Below, piece by piece: positions 4,956-62,280 of a stretch of DNA of 64,000 nucleotides. Under the pieces are notes generated by a model, which searched no databases, was not told the origin of the DNA, and was given only the letters and a program-made list of their open reading frames with translations. A program made the translations under genes and the position numbers. The stretch covers positions 62,001 through 126,000 of the forward strand of contig JAUICM010000001.1 of assembly GCA_030427885.1 (NCBI GenBank), given 5' to 3'. This stretch comes from Rhodothermia bacterium (GTDB taxonomy: Bacteria; Bacteroidota; Rhodothermia; Balneolales; Balneolaceae). Position 1 is the first letter of the stretch. Every line of letters begins with the position of its first letter.

Positions 4956-5015
4956 TGTCTCTTTAAAATTAAAGAGGATATTAGCCAGAATTTAGGTCTC
5001 TTAACACACAAAGAG
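4956..5015 (+). promoter_or_regulatory. Two tandem TCTCTT-N8-AAGAG inverted repeats
   Basis: Two copies of the same element lie in the 357-bp gap before the acetylesterase gene. The first is at 4958-4976 (TCTCTT, eight bases, AAGAG) and the second at 4997-5015 with the same eight-base spacing. Centre-to-centre distance is 39 bp. The first is preceded by TG, giving the octamer TGTCTCTT also found at 15194 (minus strand), 20112 and 26211. Arm spacing and symmetry fit a dimeric repressor or activator site. The rest of the gap is AT-rich with nothing else I can identify. Function is inferred. Confidence 0.45.
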
Positions 5016-5056
5016 CTAATCGGTCAAGTAAACACTTAATTAAAAATTCATTGTTA

Positions 5057-15130: not shown

Positions 15131-15400
15131 GACAAAACCTTTGGGTAAGTCTATTAATTTTATAGGCATGAATAGAATATTCACCCATTTATAAAGAGAC
15201 AGTCAACCGAAATTACTACTCAATATTGAGAAGTGTTTGTGACCGAATTATCAAGAACTGTGTGTCAGGTATAGCTGGGAATTGATTAGTAGAATTGATG
15301 CCTGCATGTCTCTATTGAAGAAATGGAGATCATTCAACTCCGCTCCGGTTTCAGGCAGATACGAGATCAAATAATTCCAATTTTAAACCTAGTATTTATC
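15131..15400. promoter_or_regulatory. Divergent intergenic region with two TGTCTCTT-type motifs
   Basis: The 270-bp region between the divergent PL4 and unknown-family genes has TGTCTCTT on the minus strand at 15194-15201, 63 bp before the PL4 start, and the one-mismatch version TGTCTCTA on the plus strand at 15307-15314, 86 bp before ATG 15401. Each faces its own gene. In neither copy is the second arm (AAGAG after eight bases) well kept. No terminator or other element is visible. Regulatory role is inferred from recurrence at other promoters in this block. Confidence 0.35.
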
Positions 15401-19920: not shown

Positions 19921-20111
19921 GTATAAAAGGTAGTAAGGGGATATCTCTATTATTTGCTCATATTTATCATGTGAATTTTCAAAAAAACAAATTTTATTGA
20001 GACTAAGAAAGAAATGCGAATGCATCTCATATAGTTGGTTTTTTGGGTCACAGCATCATGAGTTAATTAAAACTATGTATCAATTTTTTACAAGTAGAAA
20101 GCTCTTTTGCT

Positions 20112-20119
20112 TGTCTCTT
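20112..20119 (+). promoter_or_regulatory. TGTCTCTT motif upstream of the PL22-like gene
   Basis: The octamer lies 66 bp before ATG 20185 in the 264-bp gap (19921-20184) after the second PL26 gene. It is the same octamer as at 4956, 15194 (minus) and 26211. The opposite arm is poor here (GAAAC instead of AAGAG). The rest of the gap is AT-rich with no clear terminator. Confidence 0.35.
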
Positions 20120-20184
20120 AATGAGATGAAACGACTATGTATTTTTGAAGTCATCAAGGCCTAACCACCAAATAATTGACAACT

Positions 20185-21510
20185 ATGAAAAATCAAGCTC
20201 TGAGCGTTAATAACTCCCGAAATTCTTATCCCGGCAGCCTTAAACCAGGCTGGTTGCTTTTACTAGCCTTATTGTTTGGTATTGCTGGCTCCAAAACGGT
20301 AAACGCTCAGGTAGTTGCTGGTATCGATTATTCAGATCGGGCTCATGTGGATAATACTTTTGATATGGCGGGCCAGGATGTTTTCGGACAACGTTTTGCT
20401 TCTGAAAACCTTACGATCAAAGATACAGTAACCGGGGTGGATATACTTGCTCTTACTACTTCACGACACAATAATTCTAAGATCTATCAGGATCATCCGC
20501 AATGGACAGCGGATGGCAAATATCTTGTTTTCCGCTCAAGCAGAGCTGAATGGCAGTACTATGCTATGTCGATGGATACCTATGAAATCGTTCAAATTAC
20601 AACAGGTGAAAATAATCAGTTTCTGCATTTGGGATGGAAAACTAATAATGCATACCAGATCAGAGACAGTGTACTTTTGAAACTGGATCTGGGTAGCTTA
20701 CTTAAAGACAGTGAAAATGGAAATGTAAATTCTGATCCAGCTCACTATGAAACCGTAATTGCTGAGTTACCGGAAGGCGTGCGAGAATCAGGTGGAACAG
20801 GTTTGGATGCTGATGAGGACCGCTTGTTTTTTGCCTCCCGAATTGCAAAACAACAATCAGCCATTTATAGTATTGATTTTAAAACCGGAGAAACAATCAA
20901 ACATTTGGAAGTACCACTTTGGGCAAATCACCTGCAAGCCAATAAGTGGGTTTCTGGTGAGATTATGTATTCATGGGAAACGGGTGGTGATGCTCCTCAA
21001 CGCATATGGTCGATGAGTGTAGATGAAAATGGAAAAGTAACCAATCGTCCTCTGTACAAAGAAAATGCAGAAGAGTGGGTTACACATGAAGTATTTGCAG
21101 ATAAAGACCACATTATTTTCAATGTTATGGGGCATCTGGATCGCCTGCAGAAAAAGCCATCAGGTGTTTTTTTGATGAATATTCGTACCAATGAAGTAAC
21201 CCGTTTTGACCAAGCAGGTAAAGGCGGATACTGGCACTCTGATGCTACCGAAGATCTTAAATGGGTTGTAGCAGATACTTTTGATGGTAACCTGTATCGT
21301 ATTAACGTGGAAACAAAAGAAGTGGAAATGCTTACAGCCGGACATCGTCCAAATGGGCCAAGTCCTTTTACACGCGAAGCACACTCTCATCATTCTATAA
21401 GCCCTGATGGTAAGTGGTTATTGTTTAATTCCAGTATGTTAACCAGCAGCGATATTATGATGGTACCCCTGCATCCCAAAGGAGTAGATCTACCAAAAAT
21501 TTCCTGGTGA
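20185..21510 (+). CDS. Oligogalacturonate lyase-like (PL22) beta-propeller, exported
   Basis: ATG 20185 (MKNQALS) is preferred to the TTG at 20176. An N-terminal signal peptide (PGWLLLLALLFGIAGSKTVNAQ) is followed by a seven-bladed-propeller pattern of TolB/PL22 type (HPQWTADGKYLVFRSSR, GTGLDADEDRLFFASR). Motifs expected for PL22 are present: EEWVTHEVF near residue 300 and AHSHHSISPDGKW near 400, where histidines would bind the metal. PL22 enzymes degrade unsaturated di- and trigalacturonates to DKI. Most known ones are cytoplasmic; this one has an export signal, so it should act in the periplasm. GH105 follows 49 bp downstream. Family call good, activity inferred. Confidence 0.82.
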   Translation: MKNQALSVNNSRNSYPGSLKPGWLLLLALLFGIAGSKTVNAQVVAGIDYSDRAHVDNTFDMAGQDVFGQRFASENLTIKDTVTGVDILALTTSRHNNSKIYQDHPQWTADGKYLVFRSSRAEWQYYAMSMDTYEIVQITTGENNQFLHLGWKTNNAYQIRDSVLLKLDLGSLLKDSENGNVNSDPAHYETVIAELPEGVRESGGTGLDADEDRLFFASRIAKQQSAIYSIDFKTGETIKHLEVPLWANHLQANKWVSGEIMYSWETGGDAPQRIWSMSVDENGKVTNRPLYKENAEEWVTHEVFADKDHIIFNVMGHLDRLQKKPSGVFLMNIRTNEVTRFDQAGKGGYWHSDATEDLKWVVADTFDGNLYRINVETKEVEMLTAGHRPNGPSPFTREAHSHHSISPDGKWLLFNSSMLTSSDIMMVPLHPKGVDLPKISW

Positions 21511-21559
21511 TACACAGGTATCTAACCTTTTAATCAATTCAATTCAAAAAAAGCTAGAC

Positions 21560-22951
21560 ATGCATTATTTATTATCTCATTCCCCCTGGAGGGCCATACT
21601 CATATTATTTATCGTAACAGGAATCACGGTTGGATGTACCGGACAGAAATCCGGTGAAGAAGAACCGTTAACCGATAGTAATTCACCTTTGCATGCGCTG
21701 TGGCCAGATTATCCGGTACAATATCGACCTGCAACTGAAGAACAAATTACCGAAACCTTAACGCGCGTGTATGATTACCTTAATGCTAACACACCTATGG
21801 TATTATTGGAAGCAGGTACCGAAAATGAAGTTACAGACATCCCGGGTTATTCAGGTGACACAGAGTTTGAAGCCGGTGATTTTCGCTTAGTGAGTTATGA
21901 GTGGGGTGTAACCTACGCCGGAATGCAGTTGGCGGGTGAAGTGACTGGCGATGAAAAATTCACAAAATATTCCACCGAACGACTAAAATTTCTGGGAGAT
22001 GTGGTTAATTCACACCACGTGAAACTAGAAAATAATTCAGAGCTGAAAACCCCGGTAGAATCACTCATACATCCCAGAGCATTAGATGATGCCGGAGCCA
22101 TGAGTGCAGCAATGATCAAATCTGTAACAGCAGGCTACAATCAGGAAGAAGATCTGGATTGGTTGATCAATAACCTGGTAGGATATATCCATAACGATCA
22201 GTTCAGATTCCCGGATGGTACACTGGCTCGTAATCGTCCACAGGACAATACCCTTTGGCTGGATGATATGTTCATGAGTGTTCCGGCTTTAGCTCAAATG
22301 GGAGCACATACTGGCGACAAAAAGTATTTCGATGATGCCGTTAAGCAGGTTCTGCAATTCTCTAAACGCATGTTTGATGAAGAAAAAGGGATCTATTTCC
22401 ATGGATGGGTAGACGGAATGGAAGACAAACCCCGGTTCCATTGGGGACGTGCTAATGGATGGGCACTAATGGCTAAAGTAGAATTGTTGTCGGTATTACC
22501 GGAAGATCACCCTGGATTTGAAGCTGTTCGTGAGCAGCTTCATAAACATATCTTAGGACTGGCGAAATACCAATCAGGTGAAGGCCGCTGGCATCAGCTT
22601 CTGGATAAAAACGATTCATATCTGGAAACCTCAGCTACTGCAATTTACACCTATTCAATTGCTCGTGCAATCAATCGTGGTTGGGTTGATGAGAAATCCT
22701 TTGGACCAATGGTGTTATTAGCATGGAATTCCGTTAGTAACCAGGTGAATGAAAAAGGTCAGGTTGAAGGAACATGTGTTGGAACAGGTATGGCCTTTGA
22801 CCCTGCGTTCTATTACCACCGTCCGATCAGTGTGTATGCTGCTCATGGATATGGTCCGGTAATTCTTGCAGGAGCTGAAGTTCTGGATATGACAAAGCAT
22901 TTCAATGTTGGTATCAACGATAGTGGATTACAGGTTTACGGCAGGAAATAA
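21560..22951 (+). CDS. Unsaturated rhamnogalacturonyl hydrolase (GH105), lipoprotein
   Basis: The protein has 463 residues. The N-terminus is a lipoprotein signal (LILFIVTGITVGCTG, lipidated Cys near residue 26). The rest is an (alpha/alpha)6 barrel of the YteR/YesR family: WLDDMFMSVPALAQMG near residue 233 with the Asp expected to protonate the 4,5-unsaturated uronyl ring, FHWGRANGWALMAKVELL near 295, and the closing helix region YHRPISVYAAHGYGPVILAGAE. It removes the unsaturated galacturonyl group from the products of the PL4 and PL26 lyases, freeing rhamnose for the operon downstream. It is in a pair with the PL22-like gene and is followed by a terminator. Confidence 0.92.
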   Translation: MHYLLSHSPWRAILILFIVTGITVGCTGQKSGEEEPLTDSNSPLHALWPDYPVQYRPATEEQITETLTRVYDYLNANTPMVLLEAGTENEVTDIPGYSGDTEFEAGDFRLVSYEWGVTYAGMQLAGEVTGDEKFTKYSTERLKFLGDVVNSHHVKLENNSELKTPVESLIHPRALDDAGAMSAAMIKSVTAGYNQEEDLDWLINNLVGYIHNDQFRFPDGTLARNRPQDNTLWLDDMFMSVPALAQMGAHTGDKKYFDDAVKQVLQFSKRMFDEEKGIYFHGWVDGMEDKPRFHWGRANGWALMAKVELLSVLPEDHPGFEAVREQLHKHILGLAKYQSGEGRWHQLLDKNDSYLETSATAIYTYSIARAINRGWVDEKSFGPMVLLAWNSVSNQVNEKGQVEGTCVGTGMAFDPAFYYHRPISVYAAHGYGPVILAGAEVLDMTKHFNVGINDSGLQVYGRK

Positions 22952-22991
22952 GCCCTGATACCTTTACTCCAGTTTGCCCTGAAGGGAAATT

Positions 22992-23016
22992 GGGAGGCTC
23001 AGCTTCCCGATTTTTT
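22992..23016 (+). terminator. Terminator after the PL22/GH105 pair
   Basis: Stem GGGAGGC / GCTTCCC (one G-T pair) with a TCA loop, then GA and six T. Confidence 0.65.
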
Positions 23017-23120
23017 ATATTTCTGTCGTAGCTGATAACACAGATCCTTCACCAGTGAGACTTAACAGTGTCAGAGATTTTCTATTGATCCCAAACCAAG
23101 AATAAATCACCCTAAGCATC

Positions 23121-24554
23121 ATGTCAAAGCGAAAACTAAATCGAAGGGAAGTGTTAAATATGGGAGCTAAATTTACTGTTGGTTCAGTATTAGGTGCTTC
23201 CTTTTTGCCAAACATTGCAAGCGGAAAATATCTTCGGCATAGTATTCGTGAATTTAATGTGATGGATTATGGAGCAGCAGGAGATGGTAAAACACTGGAT
23301 ACTATAGCTGTACAGCGTGCTATTGATGAAGCAGCAGCATCTGGGGGCGGAGCCAGGGTTTTGATACCTGGAGGTAAACAATTTCTAATTGGTACAATTG
23401 AGTTGAAAAGTAATATCGATTTTCATTTAGCTGATAATTCAGAATTGCTTATCAGTACAAAAAGGGAGGATTATGGCAAGGACCCTGCCGTAATAACTGC
23501 CCGTGATACTAATGGCCTTTTGATATCAGGAACCGGAAATATTGACGGCCAGTCGTTGAAGTTCATGACCCATTACGATGATGTGGATGAATGGTGGAGA
23601 CCCGGAAATTGGCGTCCTCGAATGTTCCAGTTATATACATGCAGAGATCTGGAAGTGAAAGACATTTCATTCGGAAATGCACCCTTGTGGGGGTTGCATA
23701 TGATAGGATGTGAACAGGTGCTGGTAGACAATCTTACTATTAGGAATGTTCTGGACTTGCCAAACTGTGATGGGATCAACCCGGATCATTGTCGCAATGT
23801 GGAAATAAAAAACTGTGATATTCGCTGTGGTGATGATGCTATTGTAGTGAAAGCCACAAGACAGGAGGAAGATTTTGGGCCTTCTGCTAATATTCATGTC
23901 CATGATTGTGTTTTGGAAACCCAGGACTCTGCAGTAAAGATCGGGACAGAAACAACCCAGGATATCCATGATATTTTGTTTGAACGGTGTGAAGTGAAAA
24001 TGTGCTGTCGTGGATGTACCATTCAGCTGAGAGATGAAGGAAGTGTCTATAATGTGGAATTCAGAGATATCAATTTTAAATCCCGGTTTTTCTCTCCACC
24101 GTGGTGGGGAAGAGGAGAAGCTATTTCATTTACGGCTATTCCCCGTACTCATAATACAGTAGTGGGTGAGATTCATAATATTAAAGTGGCAAATATCAAT
24201 GCTGAAACAGAGAATAGTATTCGAATAAATGGTACGCCGGAGGGACGTATTCGTGATATTGATTTTGATAATGTTCACATCAACATGAATCGACATACCA
24301 AATACCCTGGCGGAATGTTTGATAACCGCCCAACCCAAACCTATCCCGATATTGAGACCCATGACAATCCAGGATTTAGTGTTCGTTTTGCAGACGAAGT
24401 ACGGCTAAATAACTGCAGTGTGAAATGGGGAGATAACCGTCCCGATTATTATACTCATGCACTTGAAGCAGAAAGTGTTACCGGGTTAAAACTGAATAAA
24501 TTTGAAGGGGAAGCCGCACATCCGGATAAATACGATGCAATAGCGATTCATTGA
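23121..24554 (+). CDS. GH28-like polygalacturonase family protein with Tat-like signal
   Basis: The protein has 477 residues. The N-terminus (KLNRREVLNMGAKF then a weakly hydrophobic stretch to ASGK) resembles a twin-arginine signal. A GH28 beta-helix follows, entered by FNVMDYGAAGDGKTLDT. Catalytic landmarks: NCDGIN near residue 217 in place of NTD, and GDDAIVVK near 239 with the Asp pair. The usual GHG is replaced by IGTET, as in bacterial exo-acting or GSE-type members, and the RIK site is replaced by IQLRDEG. It may therefore be an exo-polygalacturonase or rhamnogalacturonan hydrolase rather than an endo-enzyme. The next gene begins 42 bp downstream. Family sure, specificity not. Confidence 0.85.
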   Translation: MSKRKLNRREVLNMGAKFTVGSVLGASFLPNIASGKYLRHSIREFNVMDYGAAGDGKTLDTIAVQRAIDEAAASGGGARVLIPGGKQFLIGTIELKSNIDFHLADNSELLISTKREDYGKDPAVITARDTNGLLISGTGNIDGQSLKFMTHYDDVDEWWRPGNWRPRMFQLYTCRDLEVKDISFGNAPLWGLHMIGCEQVLVDNLTIRNVLDLPNCDGINPDHCRNVEIKNCDIRCGDDAIVVKATRQEEDFGPSANIHVHDCVLETQDSAVKIGTETTQDIHDILFERCEVKMCCRGCTIQLRDEGSVYNVEFRDINFKSRFFSPPWWGRGEAISFTAIPRTHNTVVGEIHNIKVANINAETENSIRINGTPEGRIRDIDFDNVHINMNRHTKYPGGMFDNRPTQTYPDIETHDNPGFSVRFADEVRLNNCSVKWGDNRPDYYTHALEAESVTGLKLNKFEGEAAHPDKYDAIAIH

Positions 24555-24596
24555 TATTTCTGGTGAAGCTATTACCCAGTTCTAAGCTCAAATAAT

Positions 24597-25679
24597 ATGA
24601 CACACAGAAAATTCATTATTTCTTTTCTGCTACTTCTTGCCATTTCTCAAACATCACTTTTTGGGCAAAGCAGACCAGATACTACTTTTAAAATATTCCA
24701 GTTTCCAGCGGATCAGATTCCACGCATTGATGGAAATACTTCTGATTGGGATATGGTGCCCTCCAGCTATAATATCGGTACTGACCAGTTGGTGGACGAT
24801 AAGGGGCGTTATAGTGAACCTGACCCCAGCACTCTTACTGTAAATGTTAAAGTAGGATGGGTGGAAGGACTTAGCCGGCTTTATTTCTTATATGAAGCCG
24901 AAGATGATTACTGGCATTTCGAAGAAACAGGGCTTAAAAATGACACTTATGAAATAGTTGTGGATGCCGATCTCTCTGGAGGGCCGCTTATCGATCGTTT
25001 TCACCCAAATACCCGAATTGATAAGTGGGATGCTTACTTTTCATTTCATGGGGTTCACGCTCAGAATTATCACATTTTTACCCCTGCTGTCGGAAAAGAC
25101 TGGACATTAGCCTGGGGACCTCAATCCTGGATAAAAGATCTTCCATATGCGAATGCTGCATATGATTTCAACTTTGAACATGGCGAGTCAGGTAAACTTA
25201 CCCTGGAATTTTGGATAACACCCTTTGATTATGCAGGAGCTGAAGGCCCCGAACGTGCTGTTAAATCAATGCTGTACGAAAATAAATTGATTGGTTTGAG
25301 CTGGGCAGTATTGGATTATGATGAAGGAGGGGGGCAGGATGGTTTCTGGAATCTGTCGGCCGAGCACACGATGTATGGACAGGCCTCAGAATTGGTCATG
25401 TTCCAGTTGATGCCCCTCGAATCAGAATTCAGGGATCCGGTTGATGCAGATTGGGATTTCAATGTAATAGATATGGATCGAAGACTGGTAGCTTTTAAGG
25501 ATGAATCGGAAGGTAATATTACTTCCTGGAAATGGGATTTTGGAGATGGTAATACTTCCACTGAGCAACACCCAATTCATAAATATAAAGAACCCGGACT
25601 ATATGTAGTGGTACTTGAGGTTGAAGGGCCAGATGGCAAAGACCGGCTTTCTAAAGTGTGGGATGTGGCATTGAGATAG
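24597..25679 (+). CDS. Secreted CBM9-like plus PKD domain protein
   Basis: The protein has 360 residues with a signal peptide (FIISFLLLLAISQTSLFGQ). The main part has the start and layout of a CBM9/DOMON-like sandwich (IPRIDGNTSDWDMVP near residue 42, LYFLYEAEDDYWHFEE, YEIVVDADLSGG). The C-terminal 80 residues are a single PKD domain (VAFKDESEGNITSWKWDFGDGNTSTEQHPIHKYKEPGLY). No catalytic motif is visible. It probably binds glycan fragments or assists a neighbouring enzyme. It follows the GH28-like gene closely and precedes the rhamnose operon by 93 bp. Confidence 0.75.
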   Translation: MTHRKFIISFLLLLAISQTSLFGQSRPDTTFKIFQFPADQIPRIDGNTSDWDMVPSSYNIGTDQLVDDKGRYSEPDPSTLTVNVKVGWVEGLSRLYFLYEAEDDYWHFEETGLKNDTYEIVVDADLSGGPLIDRFHPNTRIDKWDAYFSFHGVHAQNYHIFTPAVGKDWTLAWGPQSWIKDLPYANAAYDFNFEHGESGKLTLEFWITPFDYAGAEGPERAVKSMLYENKLIGLSWAVLDYDEGGGQDGFWNLSAEHTMYGQASELVMFQLMPLESEFRDPVDADWDFNVIDMDRRLVAFKDESEGNITSWKWDFGDGNTSTEQHPIHKYKEPGLYVVVLEVEGPDGKDRLSKVWDVALR

Positions 25680-25772: not shown

Positions 25773-26087
25773 ATGTACCGCAATGCATTTAAAATGAAGC
25801 TGAAACCGGGCTTCAAAGATGAATACAAAAAACGTCACGATGAAATCTGGCCTGAGCTGGAAGAAGCTTTAACCGAAGCCGGTATTCATGATTATTCTAT
25901 TTTTCTGGATGAAGAGACCAATATTCTGTTCGGTGTGCAAATGCTGGAAGACAATTTCGACGGTCAGGCCCTCAGGCAACTGCCTGTTATGAAAAAATGG
26001 TGGGATTATATGAAAGATCTTATGGAAGTAAACCCTGACAACTCTCCGGTGGAAAGTCCTCTCGAGCAAGTATTTCATATGGATTAA
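25773..26087 (+). CDS. rhaM: L-rhamnose mutarotase
   Basis: The protein has 104 residues, the standard RhaM length. Family landmarks: AFKMKLKPGFKDEYKKRHDEIWPEL with the catalytic His, GIHDYSIFLDEETNILFG with the Tyr, and LPVMKKWWDYMKDLM near the end. RhaM interconverts alpha- and beta-L-rhamnopyranose, supplying the anomer the isomerase uses. It is cytoplasmic and is the first gene of the rhamnose block. A 270-bp gap with a regulatory motif separates it from the permease. Confidence 0.95.
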   Translation: MYRNAFKMKLKPGFKDEYKKRHDEIWPELEEALTEAGIHDYSIFLDEETNILFGVQMLEDNFDGQALRQLPVMKKWWDYMKDLMEVNPDNSPVESPLEQVFHMD

Positions 26088-26210: not shown

Positions 26211-26231
26211 TGTCTCTTAAGAAGTAAAGAA
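26211..26231 (+). promoter_or_regulatory. TGTCTCTT-N8-AAGAA inverted repeat upstream of the permease gene
   Basis: The element has the same arm spacing as the pair at 4956-5015 (TCTCTT, eight bases, AAGAA; one mismatch in the second arm). It is 126 bp before ATG 26358. A weaker GGTCTCTC copy is at 26336-26343, close to the start codon. The remainder of the 26088-26357 gap shows no gene or clear terminator. Confidence 0.4.
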
Positions 26232-26357: not shown

Positions 26358-27764
26358 ATGAATAATATTATTCAGCGGTTAGATGCCCGCCTAAAAAACA
26401 TTGATGAATATGAACGGCGCCCGGTTCCGGATGATAAACGTAAGGGATGGAAAGGGTTTCTGGGTATGTATGCCGGGGAACATACTGCGGGTACTGAGTT
26501 TGTAATAGGGCCATTATTTGTGGCTCATGGTGTTGCCACCGGAGAATTAATTTGGGGACTCATACTGGGAAATGTCCTGGCAGTGTTGAGCTGGGCTTTT
26601 TTATGTGCGCCTGTAGCGGTTAAAACCAAGTTGACCCTTTACTGGCAGATGAAGAAAATTTGCGGTTCCAAACTGGCCTCGGTTTATAATGTGGTTAATG
26701 CATTAATGTTTTGCTTTCTTGCAGGAGCAATGATCGCTGTGGCAGCTACAGCTATTGGTTTGCCTTTTGGAATCCCGATGCCAGAATTGGGGGATTGGAT
26801 GCCTACCAGTATCGGATGGGTAATAACGGTGTTTTTTGTAGGACTGGTTATTACGCTTGTTGCCATTATGGGATATGATTATGTGGCGTGGTTTGCTAAT
26901 GTGGCTTTCCCATGGATGATTTTAGTATTCATCGCTGCAGCTTTTGCTGCACTCCCAAAACTTGGTGTTACTTCTATTTCTGATTTTTGGACGGTTGCAC
27001 AGGATAAAATATGGACTGGTATTCCGGCGGAAGGGCAAAGTAAATTTACCTTTTGGCATGTGATGTTTTTTGCATGGTTTGCAAACATGGCAATGCATAT
27101 TGGGATGGCCGATATGTCTATCCTACGTTTTGCCAAGAAATGGCAGCATGGATTTGCGTCCGGTTCCGGAATGTTTTTTGGTCACTTCATTGCGTGGATG
27201 GCATCGGGAATTCTTACAGCAGCAGCAGCAGGAGCTATTGCACCAGGTATTATCGCCTACAATAGTGCTGGTATAGCGGGTGCAATTTGTGTGGTTATTG
27301 CTGGTTGGACCACTGCTAATCCAACTATCTACCGCGCTGGTCTGGCGTTTCAGTCGGTTACACCAAACTGGAAGCGCTGGAAGGTCACTTTGTTTACAGG
27401 CCTCGTTACATCTATTGCAGCCTGTTTCCCGGCTCTGGTAATGCAATTGCTTGATTTCGTAGCTCTTTATGGATTGGTCCTGATGCCTATGGGTGCCGTT
27501 ATCTTTTTGGATGTCATGGTTTTCAAGAAATTGAACCTTATCAGTAATCTTGCAGAAAATACCGGCATAGACTTTAACTGGATGGCTGGATTGACCTGGG
27601 TAATTACTTTACTTCTTTGTCTCTCAATCAATCTGTATATGGGTGTTGAAATATTTTTCCTTGGACTTCCGGGCTGGTTTATAGCCTCACTCTTATACAT
27701 CGGGTTCAGCATATTATATCAGAGAAAAATTATGGATCCGAAATCGGTTAAAGTCCCAGCATGA
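26358..27764 (+). CDS. NCS1-family permease, candidate L-rhamnose transporter
   Basis: The protein has 468 residues with about twelve hydrophobic segments and the N-terminal pattern of the cytosine/purine/allantoin permease family (NCS1): a soluble start (ERRPVPDDKRKGW) and TM1 with EHTAGTEFVIGPLFVAHG. Later comes the helix-break region FAWFANMAMHIGMADMSILRF. NCS1 carriers are cation symporters with the LeuT fold, best known for nucleobases and vitamins. Here the gene lies between rhaM and rhaEW in a cluster that has no other sugar transporter, so L-rhamnose (or a rhamnose-containing product) is the obvious candidate substrate. Family call is firm, substrate is inference from context only. 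Confidence 0.85.
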   Translation: MNNIIQRLDARLKNIDEYERRPVPDDKRKGWKGFLGMYAGEHTAGTEFVIGPLFVAHGVATGELIWGLILGNVLAVLSWAFLCAPVAVKTKLTLYWQMKKICGSKLASVYNVVNALMFCFLAGAMIAVAATAIGLPFGIPMPELGDWMPTSIGWVITVFFVGLVITLVAIMGYDYVAWFANVAFPWMILVFIAAAFAALPKLGVTSISDFWTVAQDKIWTGIPAEGQSKFTFWHVMFFAWFANMAMHIGMADMSILRFAKKWQHGFASGSGMFFGHFIAWMASGILTAAAAGAIAPGIIAYNSAGIAGAICVVIAGWTTANPTIYRAGLAFQSVTPNWKRWKVTLFTGLVTSIAACFPALVMQLLDFVALYGLVLMPMGAVIFLDVMVFKKLNLISNLAENTGIDFNWMAGLTWVITLLLCLSINLYMGVEIFFLGLPGWFIASLLYIGFSILYQRKIMDPKSVKVPA

Positions 27765-27851: not shown

Positions 27852-30050
27852 ATGGAAACAAGTATAATTGATAGTTATTTCAGACAAGTTGAAAGTAAAT
27901 GGGATGAGAGTAAAGTTAAGGGGCAAGATGCGTTGGCACGTCTGGTGTATCGTTCGAACCTCTTAGGAAGTGATGCTTATGTTAATAATACAGGTGGGGG
28001 AAATACATCTAGCAAGGTAATGGAGAAGGATCCCATTAACGGAGAAGAAGCTGAAGTGCTATGGGTGAAAGGTTCTGGAGGAGATCTGCGTACAGCAAAA
28101 AAGCCAAATTTTGCATCATTGTACCAACAAAAATTGTTGAAACTCCAAGATATATATAAAAACATGGACAATACCGGGCTGAAGACACCAGCTGAAGACT
28201 CCATGGTGCATATGTATCCCCATTGTACATACAATTTAAATCCTCGGTCTCCATCTATTGATACCCCATTGCATAGCTTTATTCCTTACAAGTTTGTAGA
28301 CCACACACATCCCGTGCCAGTGATTGCTATTGCAACAGCAGACAACGGTCCCGAACTGATGGAAAAGATATACGGTGATGAAGTTGCGTGGGTAGAGTGG
28401 ATGCGCCCCGGTTTTGAACTTGGATTGAAGCTGCAGGAAACGATCAAAGAAAATCCGAACATCCGGGGTATTATTTTAGGTGGACATGGACTTATAAACT
28501 GGGCCAATGACGATAAAGAATGTTATGAATTAAGCCTGGAGCTAATTAATAAAGCAGCAGCTTATCTGGAAGAGCACGAACTAGGAGAAAAAACTTTTGG
28601 TGGGGCTAAATTTGAATCACTGGAGGAAGACAAGCGACGCGAAGTTTTTGCGAAGATACTACCATTTCTACGCGGACAGGTAAGTCAGCAAAACCAGTTT
28701 ATAGGAACCATTCAGGATGACGAGACTACTTTAGAGTTCGTTAATTCCAAAGATGCTCCACGTCTGGCTGAATTGGGCACTTCTTGTCCTGATCACTTCC
28801 TTCGTACCAAAATTAAGCCCTTGTATGTAAACTGGGATCCACAATCTGGGTCCGTAGATGAGTTAAAAGAGAAAATTACACAAGGCCTCATTGAATATCG
28901 TGATGACTATGCTGATTATTACAACAATCACAAAGACCAAGCCTCACCAGCAATGCGAGATCCTAACCCTACGGTGATCTTAATTCCTGGTTTAGGAATG
29001 GTAGCCTGGGGAAAGAACAAAAGTGAGTCACGTGTGACAGCTGAATTTTATACTGCAGCAATCGGAGTAATGCGTGGTGCGGAATCGGTTGCTAATTATA
29101 CTGCATTGCCAAAACAGGAAGCCTATGATATAGAGTATTGGGCACTTGAAGAGGCAAAACTCCAACGAATGCCAAAAGAAAGTGAACTTTCACGGCAGAT
29201 CATTGCTGTGGTTGGTGCCGGAAGCGGTATTGGTAAAGCCCTGGTTACCCGCCTGATCGAAGAAGGTGGAACGGTAGCGGCATTGGATCTTAATGAAGAA
29301 GCTGCTGAATCTACAGCCAAAGAAGTGTTAAGTGAAATTGGAATGGGTATCGGAGTGGCTGGTTCTGATATCAGTGGCTCAGGTGATATTATTGGTGTAG
29401 GCTGTGATATTACTGATCGCTCTTCTGTTAAAAAAGCCCTTCATAAAGTTATACTAGCGTATGGAGGTGTGGATCATGTGGCTGTTACTGCGGGTCTGTA
29501 TCCCACCCCTGATCAACACGGAAATGTGGGTGATTCGGCCTGGGATAAAAGTTTTGCTGTCAATGTGAAGGGAAATTACATTGTAGCGGATGAAGCAGCA
29601 GAAATCTGGAATGCACAAAAACTGAAAGGCAGTATGGTGATAACCACGAGTGCTAACGCAGTGGTACCGAAGTCCGGCAGTTTGGCTTATGATACCAGTA
29701 AGTCTGCGGCAAATCACCTGATACGGGAGTTGGCAATTTCATTATCGCCAAGAGTACGGGTGAACGGTGTTGCACCTGCTACAGTGGTAGAGGGAAGTAG
29801 CATGTTCCCACGGGACCGTGTGATTGCTTCTCTAACCAAATATGGTATCGAGTTTAGCAAAGATGAAAGTACAGAATCACTTCGCGACAAGTTAGCTGGC
29901 TTCTATGCAGGCCGAACACTAACAAAGCGTAATATAACTCTTGAACAACAATGCGAGGCCATTTACAGCCTGATAAGCTCCAAGTTCAGCAATACCACCG
30001 GGCATGTTATTCCGGTTGATGGCGGACTCAAGGATGCATTCCTGCGATAA
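27852..30050 (+). CDS. rhaEW: Bifunctional rhamnulose-1-phosphate aldolase / L-lactaldehyde dehydrogenase
   Basis: The protein has 732 residues in two domains. Residues about 1-430 are a class II (zinc) aldolase/adducin domain: NNTGGGNTSSKV, FVDHTHPVPVIAIA and GGHGLINW supply phosphate- and metal-binding residues. Residues about 445-732 are a short-chain dehydrogenase: VVGAGSGIGKALV (NAD-binding), YDTSKSAANHL (YxxxK catalytic pair) and HVIPVDGGLKDAFLR at the end. The fusion cleaves L-rhamnulose-1-phosphate to DHAP and L-lactaldehyde, then oxidises the aldehyde to L-lactate with NAD. This explains why lactate-oxidation genes are in the same cluster. Length and order match known fusion enzymes. 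Confidence 0.93.
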   Translation: METSIIDSYFRQVESKWDESKVKGQDALARLVYRSNLLGSDAYVNNTGGGNTSSKVMEKDPINGEEAEVLWVKGSGGDLRTAKKPNFASLYQQKLLKLQDIYKNMDNTGLKTPAEDSMVHMYPHCTYNLNPRSPSIDTPLHSFIPYKFVDHTHPVPVIAIATADNGPELMEKIYGDEVAWVEWMRPGFELGLKLQETIKENPNIRGIILGGHGLINWANDDKECYELSLELINKAAAYLEEHELGEKTFGGAKFESLEEDKRREVFAKILPFLRGQVSQQNQFIGTIQDDETTLEFVNSKDAPRLAELGTSCPDHFLRTKIKPLYVNWDPQSGSVDELKEKITQGLIEYRDDYADYYNNHKDQASPAMRDPNPTVILIPGLGMVAWGKNKSESRVTAEFYTAAIGVMRGAESVANYTALPKQEAYDIEYWALEEAKLQRMPKESELSRQIIAVVGAGSGIGKALVTRLIEEGGTVAALDLNEEAAESTAKEVLSEIGMGIGVAGSDISGSGDIIGVGCDITDRSSVKKALHKVILAYGGVDHVAVTAGLYPTPDQHGNVGDSAWDKSFAVNVKGNYIVADEAAEIWNAQKLKGSMVITTSANAVVPKSGSLAYDTSKSAANHLIRELAISLSPRVRVNGVAPATVVEGSSMFPRDRVIASLTKYGIEFSKDESTESLRDKLAGFYAGRTLTKRNITLEQQCEAIYSLISSKFSNTTGHVIPVDGGLKDAFLR

Positions 30051-30469: not shown

Positions 30470-31753
30470 ATGAATATTACTTCTTCTCATATTGAAGAGC
30501 ACAACAAGAAAGCAGTTGAGGATCACAATGATGCATTTGACGCTTTAACTCATCAGCTTCATAAACAGAATATCGACATTGACAGTTTGATCGGGCAGGC
30601 GGGGGCTTTCCAGGTAGCTATTCCCAGCTGGGCATTAGGGGCTGGTGGAACCAGGTTCGGAAGATTTGCTATGGGAGGTGAGCCCAGAAGTCTGGAGGAG
30701 AAAATTAAGGATGTGGGTTTACTTCATGCTCTTAACCATTCCAGCGGTGCTATTTCATTACATATTCCATGGGACATCCCAAAAGATTCCGGGGCAGTGA
30801 AAGAACTCGCAGATAAATATAATCTTGTATTTGATGCGGTAAACTCCAACACTTTTCAGGACCAGAAGGGGCAGAAACATTCGTATAAATTTGGCTCTTT
30901 ATCTCATACCAAGCAAGAGGTTCGCGAGCAGGCCATAGAGCATAATATTGAAGTGATCAGATATGGAAAGGAACTTGGTTCCAAGGCTCTCACGGTTTGG
31001 CTGGCCGATGGATCCAGCTTTCCTGGACAACAGAATTTTAGTAAGGCTCTACAAAATACAAGAGAATCACTTGGAAGTATTTACAAAGCCCTGCCACAAG
31101 ACTGGCAGATGCTCATAGAATACAAGCCCTACGAACCTAACTTTTATTCGATGGTGATCCCAGACTGGGGGACCTCATTCTTACTGGCAAATAAATTAGG
31201 TGAACGGGCTAAAACGCTGGTGGATCTCGGACATCATCTGCCTAACACTAATATTGAGCAGATTGTCGCAATTCTGCTGATGGAAGGTAAGTTGGGGGGA
31301 TTTCACTTTAACGATTCTAAATATGGGGATGATGACCTGACGACAGGTTCCCTGAAACCCTATCAGTTATTTTTGATATTCAATGAGCTGATTGGAGGGA
31401 CTAGCAATCCTGAACAGCTTCGCAACCATATAGCCTGGATGATCGATGCAAGCCACAACGTAAAAGACCCACTGGAGGATTTGCTACAATCGGTAGAGGC
31501 TATTTTACAGGCTTACGTGAAGGCACTTCTTATTGACCGGGATAAATTGCAGGCTGTCAGGGAAGATAATGATCCCGCAGGAGCACAGGAGATTTTACAG
31601 TCTGCGTTTCAAACGGACGTTCGTCCATTACTTACGGAAGCCCGAATACGCCATCAAGCGGCAGCTAACCCTGTTCAGTTATACCGGGAGTTGAATGTTC
31701 GTAAACAGTTGATCAACGAACGGGGAACTGAAAGCATGGCTACAGGTCTTTAA
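30470..31753 (+). CDS. rhaI: L-rhamnose isomerase (RhaI type)
   Basis: The protein has 427 residues, the length of the RhaI (Pseudomonas/Bacillus-type) branch rather than of E. coli RhaA. TIM-barrel metal-site residues are visible: MLIEYKPYEP (Glu) near residue 220, TLVDLGHHLP (Asp/His) near 260, and FHFNDSKYGDDDL (His, Asn-Asp, Lys) near 285. It converts L-rhamnose to L-rhamnulose in the cytoplasm using Mn or Co. The kinase gene follows after 31 bp. Confidence 0.95.
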   Translation: MNITSSHIEEHNKKAVEDHNDAFDALTHQLHKQNIDIDSLIGQAGAFQVAIPSWALGAGGTRFGRFAMGGEPRSLEEKIKDVGLLHALNHSSGAISLHIPWDIPKDSGAVKELADKYNLVFDAVNSNTFQDQKGQKHSYKFGSLSHTKQEVREQAIEHNIEVIRYGKELGSKALTVWLADGSSFPGQQNFSKALQNTRESLGSIYKALPQDWQMLIEYKPYEPNFYSMVIPDWGTSFLLANKLGERAKTLVDLGHHLPNTNIEQIVAILLMEGKLGGFHFNDSKYGDDDLTTGSLKPYQLFLIFNELIGGTSNPEQLRNHIAWMIDASHNVKDPLEDLLQSVEAILQAYVKALLIDRDKLQAVREDNDPAGAQEILQSAFQTDVRPLLTEARIRHQAAANPVQLYRELNVRKQLINERGTESMATGL

Positions 31754-31784: not shown

Positions 31785-33233
31785 ATGAACAAAGCCCTAC
31801 CTGTAACAGCAGTTTTCGATATTGGAAAAACCAATAAGAAGATTTATCTGTTTGACAAGCAATACGGGGTTGTTCAAAAAAATCAGGTAAGTTTAAATCA
31901 GTCTGCTGATGATGATGGAGATCTTTGTGAAGATCTGTCGGCTCTGGAGCAATGGATCAGTGATAATATCCGTAAAATACGCGAAGATAAATCGGTTAAA
32001 GTAGAGGCATTAAATTTTTCTACTTATGGTGCCAGTCTTGTTCATTTGGATGAAACGGGAAAGCCGGTAACGCCGATGTACAATTATTTAAAGCCCTATC
32101 CTGAAGAGCTTTCCAATCAATTTTATAGAAGTTATAAGGGCAGAGAGGGCCTTTCACTGGAAACAGCCTCACCACCTATGGGCATGCTTAATTCGGGCCT
32201 GCAATTATACTGGCTTAAATATGGGAAACCTGAGTCATTCAGGAAAATTCGTAAAAGCCTTCATTTTCCACAGTATCTGAGTTATCTCATGACAGGCCAA
32301 TATCTATCAGAGTTAACAAGTATTGGTTGCCATACGGCTATGTGGAATTTTAAGCAGGATGATTATCACGTATGGATGAAACAGGAAGATTTACTCGAAC
32401 TCCTACCTGCTATAAAGCCACTTACGACTACTATACCAGTTAAATGGGATGAGCAAACTGTAAAAACAGGAGTAGGTGTTCATGACAGTTCAGCTGCACT
32501 GGCACCTTATTTATATGCTCTGGATGAACCTTTTATGTTGGTTTCAACCGGCACTTGGAGTATTACTTTTAATCCCTTTAATAAACAACCGCTTACTTTT
32601 GATGAGTTACAGCGTGATTGCCTGTGCTACATGGATGTAAATGGTAACCAGGTAAAAGCATCCCGTTTTTTTCTGGGGAATGAATATAGAGTTCAGAAAG
32701 AGAAGTTAATGCAGCATTTTGGAGTTCAGGAGGGCGCAGACCATGTTGAGCTGGATTCAGATCTGTTAAAGGAAATTATCCGTAAAAATGATTCCGTGAA
32801 GAAACTCAAACTGGAGACGGCCTATAATTCAGGACCCTTTCCACAGAATAAACCCGGTGTTTGGGATATCACACAATTTAACTCGTATCATGAAGCCTGT
32901 CACCAACTAATGCTCGATCTGGTGGCAATACAGGCCTGTTCCATCAAGTTAGCTGGTGGTGATGTCCCTGTACAAAAACTGGTGATTACAGGTGGATTCA
33001 GTCAGAATGAGTTTTTTATTCAATTGTTGTCCTGCTTTTTCCCTGAGAAAGAGATATATACCTCAAGCTTACCGAACGCCTCAGCTTTAGGTGCTGCTTT
33101 AATAGCAAATAATGACAGCCGGCTTCATAAAGACAAAGAGGCCGCAAATCATTTGCTGTCCCTTAAGAAGCACAAGTCCTATGATGTGAAGGAAGTAGCC
33201 AACTATCGTTGGAAAGAAACGGTGCTGGGGTAA
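31785..33233 (+). CDS. rhaB: Rhamnulokinase-like FGGY kinase
   Basis: The protein has 482 residues in the two-lobed FGGY fold: an N-terminal nucleotide motif (AVFDIGKTNKKIYLFD), a central VSTGTWSITFNPF segment, and a C-terminal VITGGFSQNEFFIQLL adenosine-binding motif. Between rhaI and lutA the expected activity is phosphorylation of L-rhamnulose at O-1 with ATP. Sequence alone would also allow another ketose kinase (for example L-fuculose); the operon decides for rhamnulose. Confidence 0.9.
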   Translation: MNKALPVTAVFDIGKTNKKIYLFDKQYGVVQKNQVSLNQSADDDGDLCEDLSALEQWISDNIRKIREDKSVKVEALNFSTYGASLVHLDETGKPVTPMYNYLKPYPEELSNQFYRSYKGREGLSLETASPPMGMLNSGLQLYWLKYGKPESFRKIRKSLHFPQYLSYLMTGQYLSELTSIGCHTAMWNFKQDDYHVWMKQEDLLELLPAIKPLTTTIPVKWDEQTVKTGVGVHDSSAALAPYLYALDEPFMLVSTGTWSITFNPFNKQPLTFDELQRDCLCYMDVNGNQVKASRFFLGNEYRVQKEKLMQHFGVQEGADHVELDSDLLKEIIRKNDSVKKLKLETAYNSGPFPQNKPGVWDITQFNSYHEACHQLMLDLVAIQACSIKLAGGDVPVQKLVITGGFSQNEFFIQLLSCFFPEKEIYTSSLPNASALGAALIANNDSRLHKDKEAANHLLSLKKHKSYDVKEVANYRWKETVLG

Positions 33234-33293: not shown

Positions 33294-34031
33294 ATGCGGA
33301 TTTCACTTTTTATCACTTGTTTTAATGACACACTGTTCCCGGAAACAGGGAAGGCAATGGTTCGTTTGCTGGAGCGATTAGGGCATACAGTTGATTTCCC
33401 TTTTGAGCAAACATGTTGCGGACAGATGCATTATAACACAGGTTATCAGGAAGAAGCCATTCCATTGCTTCGTAAGTTTATTGATGTCTTCGGAGAAGCT
33501 GATTGTGTGGTGGCACCTTCCGCTTCATGCGTTGCAATGATCCATGAATTCTACCCTAAGGTAGCTGAACGCGCGGGTGATGAAAAGCTGGCTAAAGAGG
33601 TAGAAAAAATCATTCCAAAAGTATTTGAACTGTCTCAGTTTCTGGTAGATGAGCTGGGAATCGAGGATGTGGGCGCATATTATCCGCATAGGGTAACATA
33701 TCATCCAACCTGTCATTCATTGAGGATGCTCCATGTGGGTGAAGCACCTCTCAAATTATTGAGAAAGGTTAAAGGACTGGAGCTGCTGGAACTGCCAGGT
33801 GCATTGGAATGCTGTGGATTTGGCGGAACCTTTGCTGTTAAAAATGCAGATACCTCAATGGCCATGCTTACCGACAAAATAAATCACATCGAAGGGACGG
33901 GGGCTAAAGTGTGCACATCAATTGATAACTCCTGTTTGATGCACATCGGGGGTGGTTTGTCACGCAAGGGCAGTAGAACCGGTGTAGTTCATCTCGCTGA
34001 AATTTTAGCTTCAACAGAGGGTGAGGTATGA
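33294..34031 (+). CDS. lutA: L-lactate oxidation complex subunit LutA (LldE)
   Basis: The protein has 245 residues with two CCG (cysteine-rich) motifs, TCCGQMHYNTG near residue 41 and ECCGFGGTFAV near 177, plus HPTCHS. These bind iron-sulfur or a related redox centre. LutABC oxidises L-lactate to pyruvate. The stop overlaps the lutB start by four bases (ATGA), so the two are co-translated. Its place after the rhamnose genes matches the L-lactate produced by RhaEW. Confidence 0.95.
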   Translation: MRISLFITCFNDTLFPETGKAMVRLLERLGHTVDFPFEQTCCGQMHYNTGYQEEAIPLLRKFIDVFGEADCVVAPSASCVAMIHEFYPKVAERAGDEKLAKEVEKIIPKVFELSQFLVDELGIEDVGAYYPHRVTYHPTCHSLRMLHVGEAPLKLLRKVKGLELLELPGALECCGFGGTFAVKNADTSMAMLTDKINHIEGTGAKVCTSIDNSCLMHIGGGLSRKGSRTGVVHLAEILASTEGEV

Positions 34032-35455
34032 GTATTCAAACGCCCACTTTTCAGGAAACGGCGGAGACTTATCTATCCAATAAGCAGCTTAGAAAAAATC
34101 TGGGCCATGCCACACAAACTATTCGGGGAAAGCGTAGTACTATTGTAGCTGAGATGCCCGATTGGGAGCAACTTAGGGAAGCAGGAAACAAGCTTAAAAA
34201 ACGAGTCTTACGTCATCTGGATTCTTATCTGTTAGAACTGGAAGTATCCGTGAAGAAGGCAGGTGGTCAAGTTCATTGGGCCCGGGATGCAGAGGAAGCC
34301 AATGACATTATTACCCGCCTGGTGAAAGAGAAACAAGTGAAGGAGGTAGTGAAGGTGAAATCCATCACTACAGATGAGATCAAACTAAATGAAGCTCTGA
34401 AAAAGGAAGGGATTCAGGCACTTGAAACTGATCTGGCAGAACTTATTGTACAACTGGCTGAAGATGAACCATCGCATATTTTGGTGCCAGCCATTCACAA
34501 AAACAGAAGGGAGATTCGGGATCTGTTTCGTGAGAAATTGGATAACAATGAATTAAGTGATCGTCCCGAAGACCTTGCGGAAGCGGCCCGATTGTATCTT
34601 CGGAAGAAATTTCTGAGTGCAAAAGTAGGTATTAGTGGTGCAAACTTTGGAGTCGCTGAAACCGGCACCATCGCCGTGGTGGAATCGGAAGGTAATGGCA
34701 GGATGTGTACTACATTACCTGAAACGCTTATAACCGTGATGGGTATTGAAAAGATAATCCCAACCTGGCAGGATTTTGAAGTGTTTATGCAGTTGCTGCC
34801 ACGTTCTTCGACAGCCGAGCGCATGAATCCATATAACTCATTTTGGACAGGGGTGACAGCGGGAGACGGGCCTCAGGAATTTCATCTGGTGTTGCTGGAT
34901 AATGGCCGAACTAAGGTTTTAGCAGATGAAACTGGTCGGCAGACTCTGAATTGCATCCGTTGCAGTGCATGCCTGAACGTGTGTCCGGTGTACGAACGTA
35001 CAGGAGGTCATGCCTATCACTCTGTATATCCAGGACCTATTGGAGCTATTTTAACTCCTCAGCTTAAAGGAATTCAGGATGAAGGAGCAGCTTCATTGCC
35101 CTATGCATCAAGTCTTTGTGGAGCCTGTTATGAGGTGTGTCCAGTGAAAATCGATATTCCCAAAGTACTGGTGCACCTGAGGGGTAAAGTGGTAGATGAA
35201 AAGAAGCGGAAAGGGACATTAAAATCTAAACTGGATCCTGAGCATGTTGGTATGAAACTAATGGCAAAGGCATTTAAGAATTCCAGACGATATGAGCTTG
35301 CTCAAAAACTGGCACAAAAAGGGCAGGGAATATTTGTTAAGGATGGGAAAATATCGAGTTTACCAGGTTATTTATCTGGCTGGAGCGCAATGCGGGATTT
35401 GAATCCAGTGCCTAAGCAGAGTTTCCGGGATTGGTGGAGAAACCGTGATGATTAA
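34028..35455 (+). CDS. lutB: L-lactate oxidation complex subunit LutB (LldF), iron-sulfur protein
   Basis: The protein has 475 residues. The N-terminal part is an LUD domain (EVVKVKSITTDEIKLNEAL, GISGANFGVAETGTIAVVE). The C-terminal part has two 4Fe-4S motifs, CIRCSACLNVCPVY near residue 312 and CGACYEVCPVKIDIP near 363. It is the electron-transfer subunit of LutABC. It overlaps lutA by 4 bp and lutC by 8-11 bp. Confidence 0.96.
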   Translation: MSIQTPTFQETAETYLSNKQLRKNLGHATQTIRGKRSTIVAEMPDWEQLREAGNKLKKRVLRHLDSYLLELEVSVKKAGGQVHWARDAEEANDIITRLVKEKQVKEVVKVKSITTDEIKLNEALKKEGIQALETDLAELIVQLAEDEPSHILVPAIHKNRREIRDLFREKLDNNELSDRPEDLAEAARLYLRKKFLSAKVGISGANFGVAETGTIAVVESEGNGRMCTTLPETLITVMGIEKIIPTWQDFEVFMQLLPRSSTAERMNPYNSFWTGVTAGDGPQEFHLVLLDNGRTKVLADETGRQTLNCIRCSACLNVCPVYERTGGHAYHSVYPGPIGAILTPQLKGIQDEGAASLPYASSLCGACYEVCPVKIDIPKVLVHLRGKVVDEKKRKGTLKSKLDPEHVGMKLMAKAFKNSRRYELAQKLAQKGQGIFVKDGKISSLPGYLSGWSAMRDLNPVPKQSFRDWWRNRDD

Positions 35456-36107
35456 AGCTAAGAATGAAATACTAAGTCGTATTCAAAAAGCCCTGGGAGA
35501 AGTCCATAAGGAAGAGAAACCGCAAGATATTGTTGTAAATCGGGACTACATCAAAAAAGGGAATCTTAGTGAAGAAAATAGAGTAGCACTCTTTGTAGAG
35601 AGAACGAGTGAGTATCAGGCTACTGTCAAAAGGATCAACAGAGAAGACCTGAAGCAAGAAATTGGTAAGGTCTGCCAAAGGCAAAAGGCGACAAAAATGG
35701 CTATCCCGAACGGGTTCAATACCGAATGGTTGCCTGATTCATTGGATCTTCATTTAGATAAATCAGACAAACTTCTGTCACACCACGAGCTGGATCAGCT
35801 GGACGGTGTGATAACTACATGCGCATTAGCAATAGCTCAAACCGGAACCATTATCCTGGATGCCGGGGAAGGACAGGGCCGCAGAGTACTTACCTTACTA
35901 CCAGATCTGCATATTTGTATCGTCCGGGAAGATCAGATCGTGGAATTGGTACCAGAAGCATTTGCTCACTTTGATGAAGTGGTAAAACAAGAAGGGAGAC
36001 CTATCACATTCATTTCAGGACCTTCCGCAACGTCTGATATTGAGTTGAGCAGAGTGGAAGGGGTGCATGGCCCCCGTAGGCTGGAAGTGTTGGTGTTAAA
36101 ACAATAG
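35445..36107 (+). CDS. lutC: L-lactate oxidation complex subunit LutC (LldG)
   Basis: The protein has 220 residues and is a stand-alone LUD domain: GVITTCALAIAQTGTIILDAG near residue 125 and FISGPSATSDIELSRVEGVHGPR near the end. Start may be GTG 35445 or ATG 35448; both overlap the lutB stop. It is the last gene of the rhamnose/lactate block. Confidence 0.94.
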   Translation: MMIKAKNEILSRIQKALGEVHKEEKPQDIVVNRDYIKKGNLSEENRVALFVERTSEYQATVKRINREDLKQEIGKVCQRQKATKMAIPNGFNTEWLPDSLDLHLDKSDKLLSHHELDQLDGVITTCALAIAQTGTIILDAGEGQGRRVLTLLPDLHICIVREDQIVELVPEAFAHFDEVVKQEGRPITFISGPSATSDIELSRVEGVHGPRRLEVLVLKQ

Positions 36108-61581: not shown

Positions 61582-62280
61582 CTATTTGCGCAAAGAGCCC
61601 GAAGTAAAACTAAATGGCAGAAGGTCTACGGTAAAATGCTCAGACATAGAATTATCAGAGTGGTAAAGCCTGATCTTATTAAGCGGAAGGTGTTCAAGAA
61701 TCACTTGCCGGCAAGCGCCACATGGACTGCTTACTTCTCCAAATTTAGTATGAACAGCTAAGTCAGTTAATTCTGTATCTCCGTTAGCAATACTCTTGGC
61801 TAAAGCAACTCTTTCGGCGCAAAGACCAGATGCCCATTCAGTGAATTCAATATTTACCCCTTCATACATTCCGGTTTCGGTATACAAAAGTGCTGATACC
61901 GGGAAATCAGAGTTTGGAGCCACAGCTTTACTCAACAGATCCTGTAGGTCAGAGCCTTCACTAGTTGACTTGATCTTAGAAAGGTCTTCCGGTTCAATAG
62001 TACTTATATCTGAAATTACCCTGATCTCAAGCCCAAATTCATTTTTCCAGTATTCCAGTTGATCAAAGTCAGTATCCGGCAATAAAAGAGCGGAGGGAGT
62101 ATCACCTTCACTTACACAAATAGAGCAGGCTGCCTGTACAGCTGAAATTGTGAGTGGGTATGAAACATTCTCGATACGAACACCAGCGTAAAACTTCCCG
62201 CTTTTTCCCTGTATCAAACAACTTCTTTGTTTTCCGGAATAAGGGGTATAGGATCTGCTATTTAAGATATCCCAATTCAT
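61582..62280 (-). CDS. cdd: Cytidine deaminase, two-domain form with catalytic C-terminal half
   Basis: The protein has 232 residues and two CDA folds. The N-terminal half (YTPYSGKQRSCLIQ, FYAGVRIENVSYPLTISAVQA) lacks the zinc Cys/Glu residues. The C-terminal half (PVSALLYTETGMYEGVNIEF) has the zinc and catalytic set in LCAERVALAKSI near residue 153 and SSPCGACRQV near 187. It deaminates cytidine and deoxycytidine. In E. coli Cdd the N-terminal half is the catalytic one, so the order is reversed here. The start overlaps the upstream gene's stop by one base. Confidence 0.87.
   Translation of the reverse strand: MNWDILNSRSYTPYSGKQRSCLIQGKSGKFYAGVRIENVSYPLTISAVQAACSICVSEGDTPSALLLPDTDFDQLEYWKNEFGLEIRVISDISTIEPEDLSKIKSTSEGSDLQDLLSKAVAPNSDFPVSALLYTETGMYEGVNIEFTEWASGLCAERVALAKSIANGDTELTDLAVHTKFGEVSSPCGACRQVILEHLPLNKIRLYHSDNSMSEHFTVDLLPFSFTSGSLRK

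Follow-up and report, generated by a model that had tools for sequence, protein, structure and literature searches.

A putative Na+-coupled L-rhamnose symporter with the NCS1 fold, encoded beside RG-I degradation genes in a Rhodothermia bacterium

A carrier protein of 468 amino acids, encoded by an intact reading frame with an ATG start inside an L-rhamnose gene cassette of a Rhodothermia bacterium (GCA_030427885.1, contig JAUICM010000001.1), was assigned, with a probability of roughly 0.87, to an undescribed sugar and polyol family as a Na+-coupled symporter for L-rhamnose. Rhamnose as the predicted substrate is strongly supported by co-occurrence with rhamnose isomerase, by complementarity to the rhamnose carrier RhaT and by conserved gene neighbourhoods. 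Na+ coupling is suggested by residue mapping onto the cytosine carrier CodB, and import is the proposed direction. Judged by how its matches are related, the genome would belong to the Balneolaceae, near Fodinibius and Rhodohalobacter. The whole stretch of DNA analysed, 64,000 nucleotides, is referred to below as the window, and its features are listed in Table 1.

Table 1. Features of the window, with the evidence for each assignment
Feature	Position	Strand	Evidence
Shared 10-mer, upstream of GDSL/DUF6250 esterase-like gene at 5051	4956..4965	+	pattern search
Adjoining RG-I degradation genes: PL4-type lyase, two PcRGLX-like, GH88/105-type, GH28	13190..25679		scan of window ORFs
Shared 10-mer (TGTCTCTTTA), upstream of rhamnogalacturonate lyase 13190-15184 (minus strand)	15192..15201	-	pattern search
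Shared 10-mer, upstream of oligogalacturonate-lyase-like gene (start 20176)	20112..20121	+	pattern search
rhaM, L-rhamnose mutarotase	25773..26087	+	TIGR02625, 123 bits, above cut-off
Motif TGTCTCTTAA, before carrier gene (start 26358); probable operator of RG-I/rhamnose regulon	26211..26220	+	pattern search
NCS1-fold carrier, proposed L-rhamnose:Na+ symporter	26358..27764	+	ORF; AF2 model; nearest folds CodB, Mhp1
Broken TM1, residues 40-58, family motif GEHxA(G/A)TEFVIG	26475..26531	+	conservation; model helix break after residue 43
Broken TM6, residues 240-258: W240, N243, H247, D252, R257	27075..27131	+	invariant in both branches; model helix break
TM8 motif IAGWTTANPTIYR, residues 314-326	27297..27335	+	hhalign mapping onto CodB
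rhaEW, rhamnulose-1-phosphate aldolase / lactaldehyde dehydrogenase	27852..30050	+	NF006189 and TIGR02632, both above cut-off
rhaI-type L-rhamnose isomerase	30470..31753	+	TIGR02629, 493.8 bits, E 4e-148, below equivalog cut-off
FGGY kinase, probable rhamnulokinase	31785..33233	+	best match TIGR02627 (rhamnulokinase), E 2.5e-15, far below cut-off
lutA, lutB, lutC-like L-lactate oxidation genes	33294..36107	+	lutB TIGR00273 above cut-off; other two weaker matches

Rhamnose cassette and adjoining RG-I genes

The carrier gene lies between rhaM and rhaEW, where a sequence-only reading of the same DNA had placed it. L-Lactate is the end product of RhaEW and the substrate of the lutABC-like genes, and the cassette as annotated is predicted to lead all the way from L-rhamnose to DHAP and pyruvate. 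RhaT (PF06379) was not found in the own genome, and, in line with the earlier remark that no such carrier is nearby, neither RhaT nor an ABC or MFS sugar carrier was present among the window ORFs scanned, which were all but four between 36489 and 42101. The genome has a single strong match to a sugar porter, an MFS protein encoded some 83 kb upstream on the same contig; this porter counts against the assignment to rhamnose. Its gene (L133:4223–5632) adjoins those of an AraC regulator and a DUF5107/TPR protein as well as GH2/GH97 genes. At the end of the window, on the minus strand, a gene for a cytidine-deaminase-like protein (61582–62277) adjoins one for a fusion of a GH3 C-terminal domain with a beta-lactamase-type esterase (62280–63950).

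RG-I degradation genes are located upstream of the rhamnose cassette. A 645-aa predicted secreted protein encoded within this cluster (15323–17260), for which no Pfam match was found, is a possible new RG-I enzyme. The 10-mer TGTCTCTTWA was found by pattern search, an automatic search for 16-mers having missed it; it occurs four times in the window versus 0.3 expected copies, and none of 100 shuffles reached four. A fifth copy precedes the window by about 190 bp and stands ahead of a SusC-type receptor gene. Genome-wide, 17 copies were counted in 4.15 Mb, five of them clustered over 26.4 kb in the region of the RG-I and rhamnose genes, versus about 0.1 expected there under an even spread. The earlier claim of a motif common to the carrier and the RG-I genes was borne out by these counts, and the 10-mer is probably an operator by which both gene groups would be co-regulated.

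Distribution of the carrier family

At least 574 relatives of the carrier were retrieved in one genome scan, from Balneolota, Bacteroidota, Rhodothermota, Calditrichota, KSB1, Aminicenantes and other phyla. Relatives with 35–51% identity are encoded on plasmids (Persicobacter, Alteromonas, Catenovulum, Pseudoalteromonas) and also occur in other Bacteroidota. The gammaproteobacterial members L022–L027 have a C-terminus longer by about 100 residues (561–589 vs. 468 aa) with extra hydrophobic stretches.

Gene neighbourhoods were compared for 85 carrier loci from many phyla, of which 45 contained rhaI. Within five ORFs of the carrier, a RhaEW-type aldolase was encoded in 29 loci, an FGGY kinase in 28, a GH106 rhamnosidase in 22 and a GH78 enzyme in 6; RhaEW-type tblastn matches at 22–25% identity, seen in few loci, were excluded as evidence. 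Because three loci have, in place of RhaI, the unrelated isomerase RhaA of the E. coli type, the carrier is tied to rhamnose rather than to one operon type. On Catenovulum and Pseudoalteromonas plasmids the genes follow the order RhaEW–rhaI and then carrier, and on the ulvan plasmid of Alteromonas 76-1 rhaEW and a kinase gene are near the carrier. A GntR regulator with a periplasmic/sugar-binding-protein-like domain is encoded beside the carrier in 25 loci (e.g. L071:8770–9816) and may regulate rhamnose use in Bacteroidota. In 17 of the 85 loci, several of them short contigs, neither a rhamnose gene nor a rhamnosidase was located within five ORFs; these loci count against the rhamnose assignment.

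Within a sample of 92 Balneolaceae genomes the carrier is a patchy trait, present in 20 genomes from 7 of 21 genera. Strong RhaI matches were obtained in 19 of the 92 genomes, all 19 of which also encode the carrier; the twentieth carrier genome (G046) is a fragmented assembly with a carrier contig of 4.2 kb. RhaT was detected in a single genome of this sample. That genome, G067 (C16:62992–64274 and C21:69089–70105), is the only one of the 92 to hold RhaT together with the carrier, and its rhaI is in three pieces and has a stop.

At phylum level, 394 genomes were compared using strong matches, the mannitol-type carriers of G185 and G205, a fragmentary carrier match in G432 and five weak RhaT-like matches being left out. 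The isomerase was present in 32/32 genomes with a rhamnose-type carrier (Fisher p 8e-27, uncorrected for phylogeny), and by coordinates the two genes were at most about 5 kb apart in 27 of these 32. The sequence-only reading had named co-occurrence with rhaI/rhaEW as a check, and with the isomerase it was seen in both samples. The 74 isomerase genomes comprised 30 with the carrier only, 40 with RhaT only, 2 with both and 2 with neither (p 5e-16, uncorrected for phylogeny), a pattern that is the signature of non-orthologous replacement. The two genomes with neither are G095 and G175, the latter of which has, in addition, an ordinary carrier of the PF02133 family on a different contig; a further type of rhamnose carrier may exist in both.

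A divergent branch of the family (L026, L027, L136–L138; 35–40% identity) is annotated as hypothetical proteins where the annotation is known. In 5/5 of these loci the carrier gene adjoins a polyol dehydrogenase gene of the long-chain, mannitol/arabinitol type, in 3/5 accompanied by a fructokinase-like gene. These neighbours point to mannitol as the substrate, and the divergent members are probably mannitol carriers. One genome (G247) encodes both carrier types, each beside its own pathway.

Family assignment, fold and transport mechanism

The carrier matched no entry of Pfam, NCBIfam or the PDB in sequence searches, and a profile search against the PDB was likewise negative. PF02133, the NCS1 model, matched neither the window protein nor any protein of its own genome nor any of the 57 family members and was positive in controls run on E. 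coli and B. subtilis. On these HMM results, plain membership of NCS1 was ruled out. No member of the 57-sequence family alignment matched any Pfam transporter family, and PF06379 (RhaT) did not match the carrier protein. Profile–profile comparison by hhalign of the family with a 14-sequence NCS1 alignment gave probabilities of 97.8–99.4% and E-values of 1e-12 to 1e-20 (main run: 97.8%, E 9e-13, 393 columns), and comparison with CodB alone gave E-values of 8e-5 to 4e-9. No similarity was obtained with PutP or BetT, both of which are single sequences and hence weaker controls than the NCS1 alignment. In a tree with NCS1 as outgroup, the carrier family and NCS1 were fully separated; its branches reach 10 changes per column with the root unplaced, so that it is used here only for this separation and for where the mannitol branch stands. 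Close grouping with nucleobase carriers, by which the sequence-only reading would have been refuted, was looked for and not seen.

An AlphaFold2 model, computed from an alignment of the window and locus sequences, reached a pLDDT of 89 and a pTM of 0.87 and shows breaks in TM1 and TM6. In a Foldseek search against the PDB, CodB (7qoa) ranked first with E 1.4e-11 and a TM-score of 0.81 by target length; Mhp1 was next among the NCS1 entries (TM about 0.72), followed by other LeuT-fold families. By this model the carrier would have the LeuT/NCS1 5+5 inverted-repeat fold with broken TM1 and TM6. The carrier is therefore a separate family with the NCS1 fold, outside the NCS1 sequence family. Of the earlier label 'NCS1-family', the fold (CodB and Mhp1 nearest) and the profile comparison hold and membership in PF02133 does not; of the further suggestion of a sugar-transporting branch of NCS1, the sugar role is supported by co-occurrence, RhaT complementarity and neighbourhoods, and the branch is replaced by a separate family.

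According to the CodB report (PMC9379551), T278 and T279 are the Na2-site threonines of this Na+-dependent carrier, and W108 and F204 sandwich the base, an aromatic pair described there as conserved throughout the NCS1 family. The carrier residues T318/T319 aligned with T278/T279, and Y325 with CodB Y285, in 16/16 hhalign runs; with a tolerance of one exception, both threonines are invariant across 71 sequences. The profile–profile runs further placed G40 on the Na2-site residue G29, and R257 fell on CodB R216 wherever that region was aligned. At the positions of W108 and F204 the profile alignment puts L121 and either N243 or A245, with the TM3 register possibly one turn off (F118 is near); two single-sequence runs instead gave F241 at F204. 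E41, H42, T46 and E47 of TM1 and the polar TM8 residues T318, T319, Y325 and R326 are invariant throughout the rhamnose and mannitol branches. These two branches differ at positions that cluster on TM1, TM3, TM6 and TM8, among them G45, L121–G123, A245, M246 and T323, and that lie mostly on helices lining the CodB pocket. It is considered likely that the NCS1 fold underlies a whole family of Na+-coupled carriers for sugars and polyols, in which the invariant charged TM1 motif and polar TM6 residues replace the aromatic clamp, with L-rhamnose and mannitol branches whose specificity resides in a few positions of TM1, TM3, TM6 and TM8.

In the proposed mechanism, secreted RG-I enzymes would release rhamnose and a SusC-type receptor would pass material across the outer membrane. 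The carrier would then move free L-rhamnose together with Na+ across the inner membrane by alternating access, Na+ being bound at the TM1/TM8 site and the sugar hydroxyls held at the charged break of TM1 and at that of TM6. RhaM, RhaI, the kinase and RhaEW would convert rhamnose to DHAP and lactate, which LutABC would oxidise. Across many Balneolota, Bacteroidota and marine gammaproteobacteria, RhaT would be replaced by this family, the divergent branch of which would serve for mannitol.

The RG-I genes that adjoin the carrier and have the motif in common with it, together with a GH88/105-type hydrolase in their cluster, would also fit a carrier that takes up, in place of free rhamnose, rhamnose-containing oligosaccharides or an unsaturated galacturonyl-rhamnose disaccharide derived from RG-I. 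We regard this as very unlikely: the family tracks rhamnose isomerase over differing rhamnose sources, including ulvan plasmids and rhamnosidase loci, most loci are without RG-I genes, the distribution of the carrier is complementary to that of RhaT, which carries the monosaccharide, and the sister branch points to a monomeric polyol. Solved carriers of the NCS1/LeuT fold have small pockets, which also speaks against an oligosaccharide. A disaccharide that contains rhamnose, or another derivative of rhamnose, may be the substrate instead. That a nucleobase, nucleoside or vitamin carrier came to stand in rhamnose operons by chance is hardly credible. CodB is the nearest fold, RefSeq names some homologues 'nucleoside transporter' (others 'hypothetical'), and the NCS1 model thia_cytX weakly matched 1 of 13 members of a wider alignment (E 2e-4), but across phyla it is rhamnose genes, and not nucleobase or thiamine genes, that recur in the conserved neighbour clusters. 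Near-exclusion with RhaT and the non-aromatic residues at the CodB base-stacking positions of the profile alignment, where the TM3 register is unsure, argue in the same direction.

A variant that differs from the preferred reading in the ion only, namely a rhamnose carrier driven by H+ with the proton on the TM1 acids E41/E47 or on D252, is unlikely to a lesser degree. It draws on the charged residues E41, H42, E47 and D252, which are invariant in the membrane region of both branches and for which the available part of the CodB report (PMC9379551) mentions no CodB equivalents. Against it stand both Na2-site threonines, kept in the carrier and forming the same site in CodB, which that report describes as Na+-dependent, and the marine or halophilic nature of many hosts. 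Na+-coupled uptake of free L-rhamnose remains the preferred assignment.

Relation to known transport systems

Literature searches for this carrier yielded no report, and the paper on the Alteromonas 76-1 ulvan plasmid mentions transporters only in general. Echvi_1617 of Echinicola vietnamensis is presumably listed as an L-rhamnose transporter in the mutant-fitness annotation resource (GapMind/Fitness Browser) and may belong to the present family, because other Echinicola species carry it (L061, L072, L074); in that case genetic support already exists, which would lower the novelty and raise the confidence of the assignment. What is likely new is a carrier family with a known fold, most likely transporting a substrate class new to the NCS1 fold. 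In a large group of bacteria that degrade pectin and algal polysaccharides and are without RhaT, the assignment would supply the uptake step that rhamnose catabolism had lacked. If correct, it would also lead to the re-annotation of hundreds of genes, for which neither Pfam nor NCBIfam holds a model.

CodB and Mhp1 (NCS1, PF02133; PDB 7qoa and 4d1a), which are nucleobase/hydantoin:Na+ symporters, resemble the carrier in fold and in full-length profile alignment, and the carrier keeps the Na2-site threonines of CodB as well as its R216/Y285 pair; the carrier differs in having about 16% identity to them, the charged TM1 motif and a sugar/polyol gene context. If the assignment is true, the NCS1 fold would be extended from flat heterocycles to sugars and polyols. 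The SSS sugar:Na+ symporters (vSGLT, SGLT, SiaT) likewise combine a LeuT-type fold with Na+-coupled sugar import, but ranked lower in Foldseek with a weaker structural match than CodB, and no profile similarity to PutP, a single-sequence control, was seen.

RhaT, an L-rhamnose:H+ symporter of the DMT superfamily (PF06379), has the same genomic role beside isomerase genes and replaces, or is replaced by, the carrier, although the two sequence families are unrelated. The ABC systems RhaFGHJ and RhaSTPQ and the MFS sugar porter RhaY are similarly tied to catabolic operons or regulons for rhamnose (PMC3870299) and belong to superfamilies different from that of the carrier. In a survey of rhamnose pathways in bacteria, only carriers of the DMT, ABC and MFS types are listed (PMC3870299). 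The present family would, if the assignment is true, be the fourth superfamily for bacterial rhamnose uptake.
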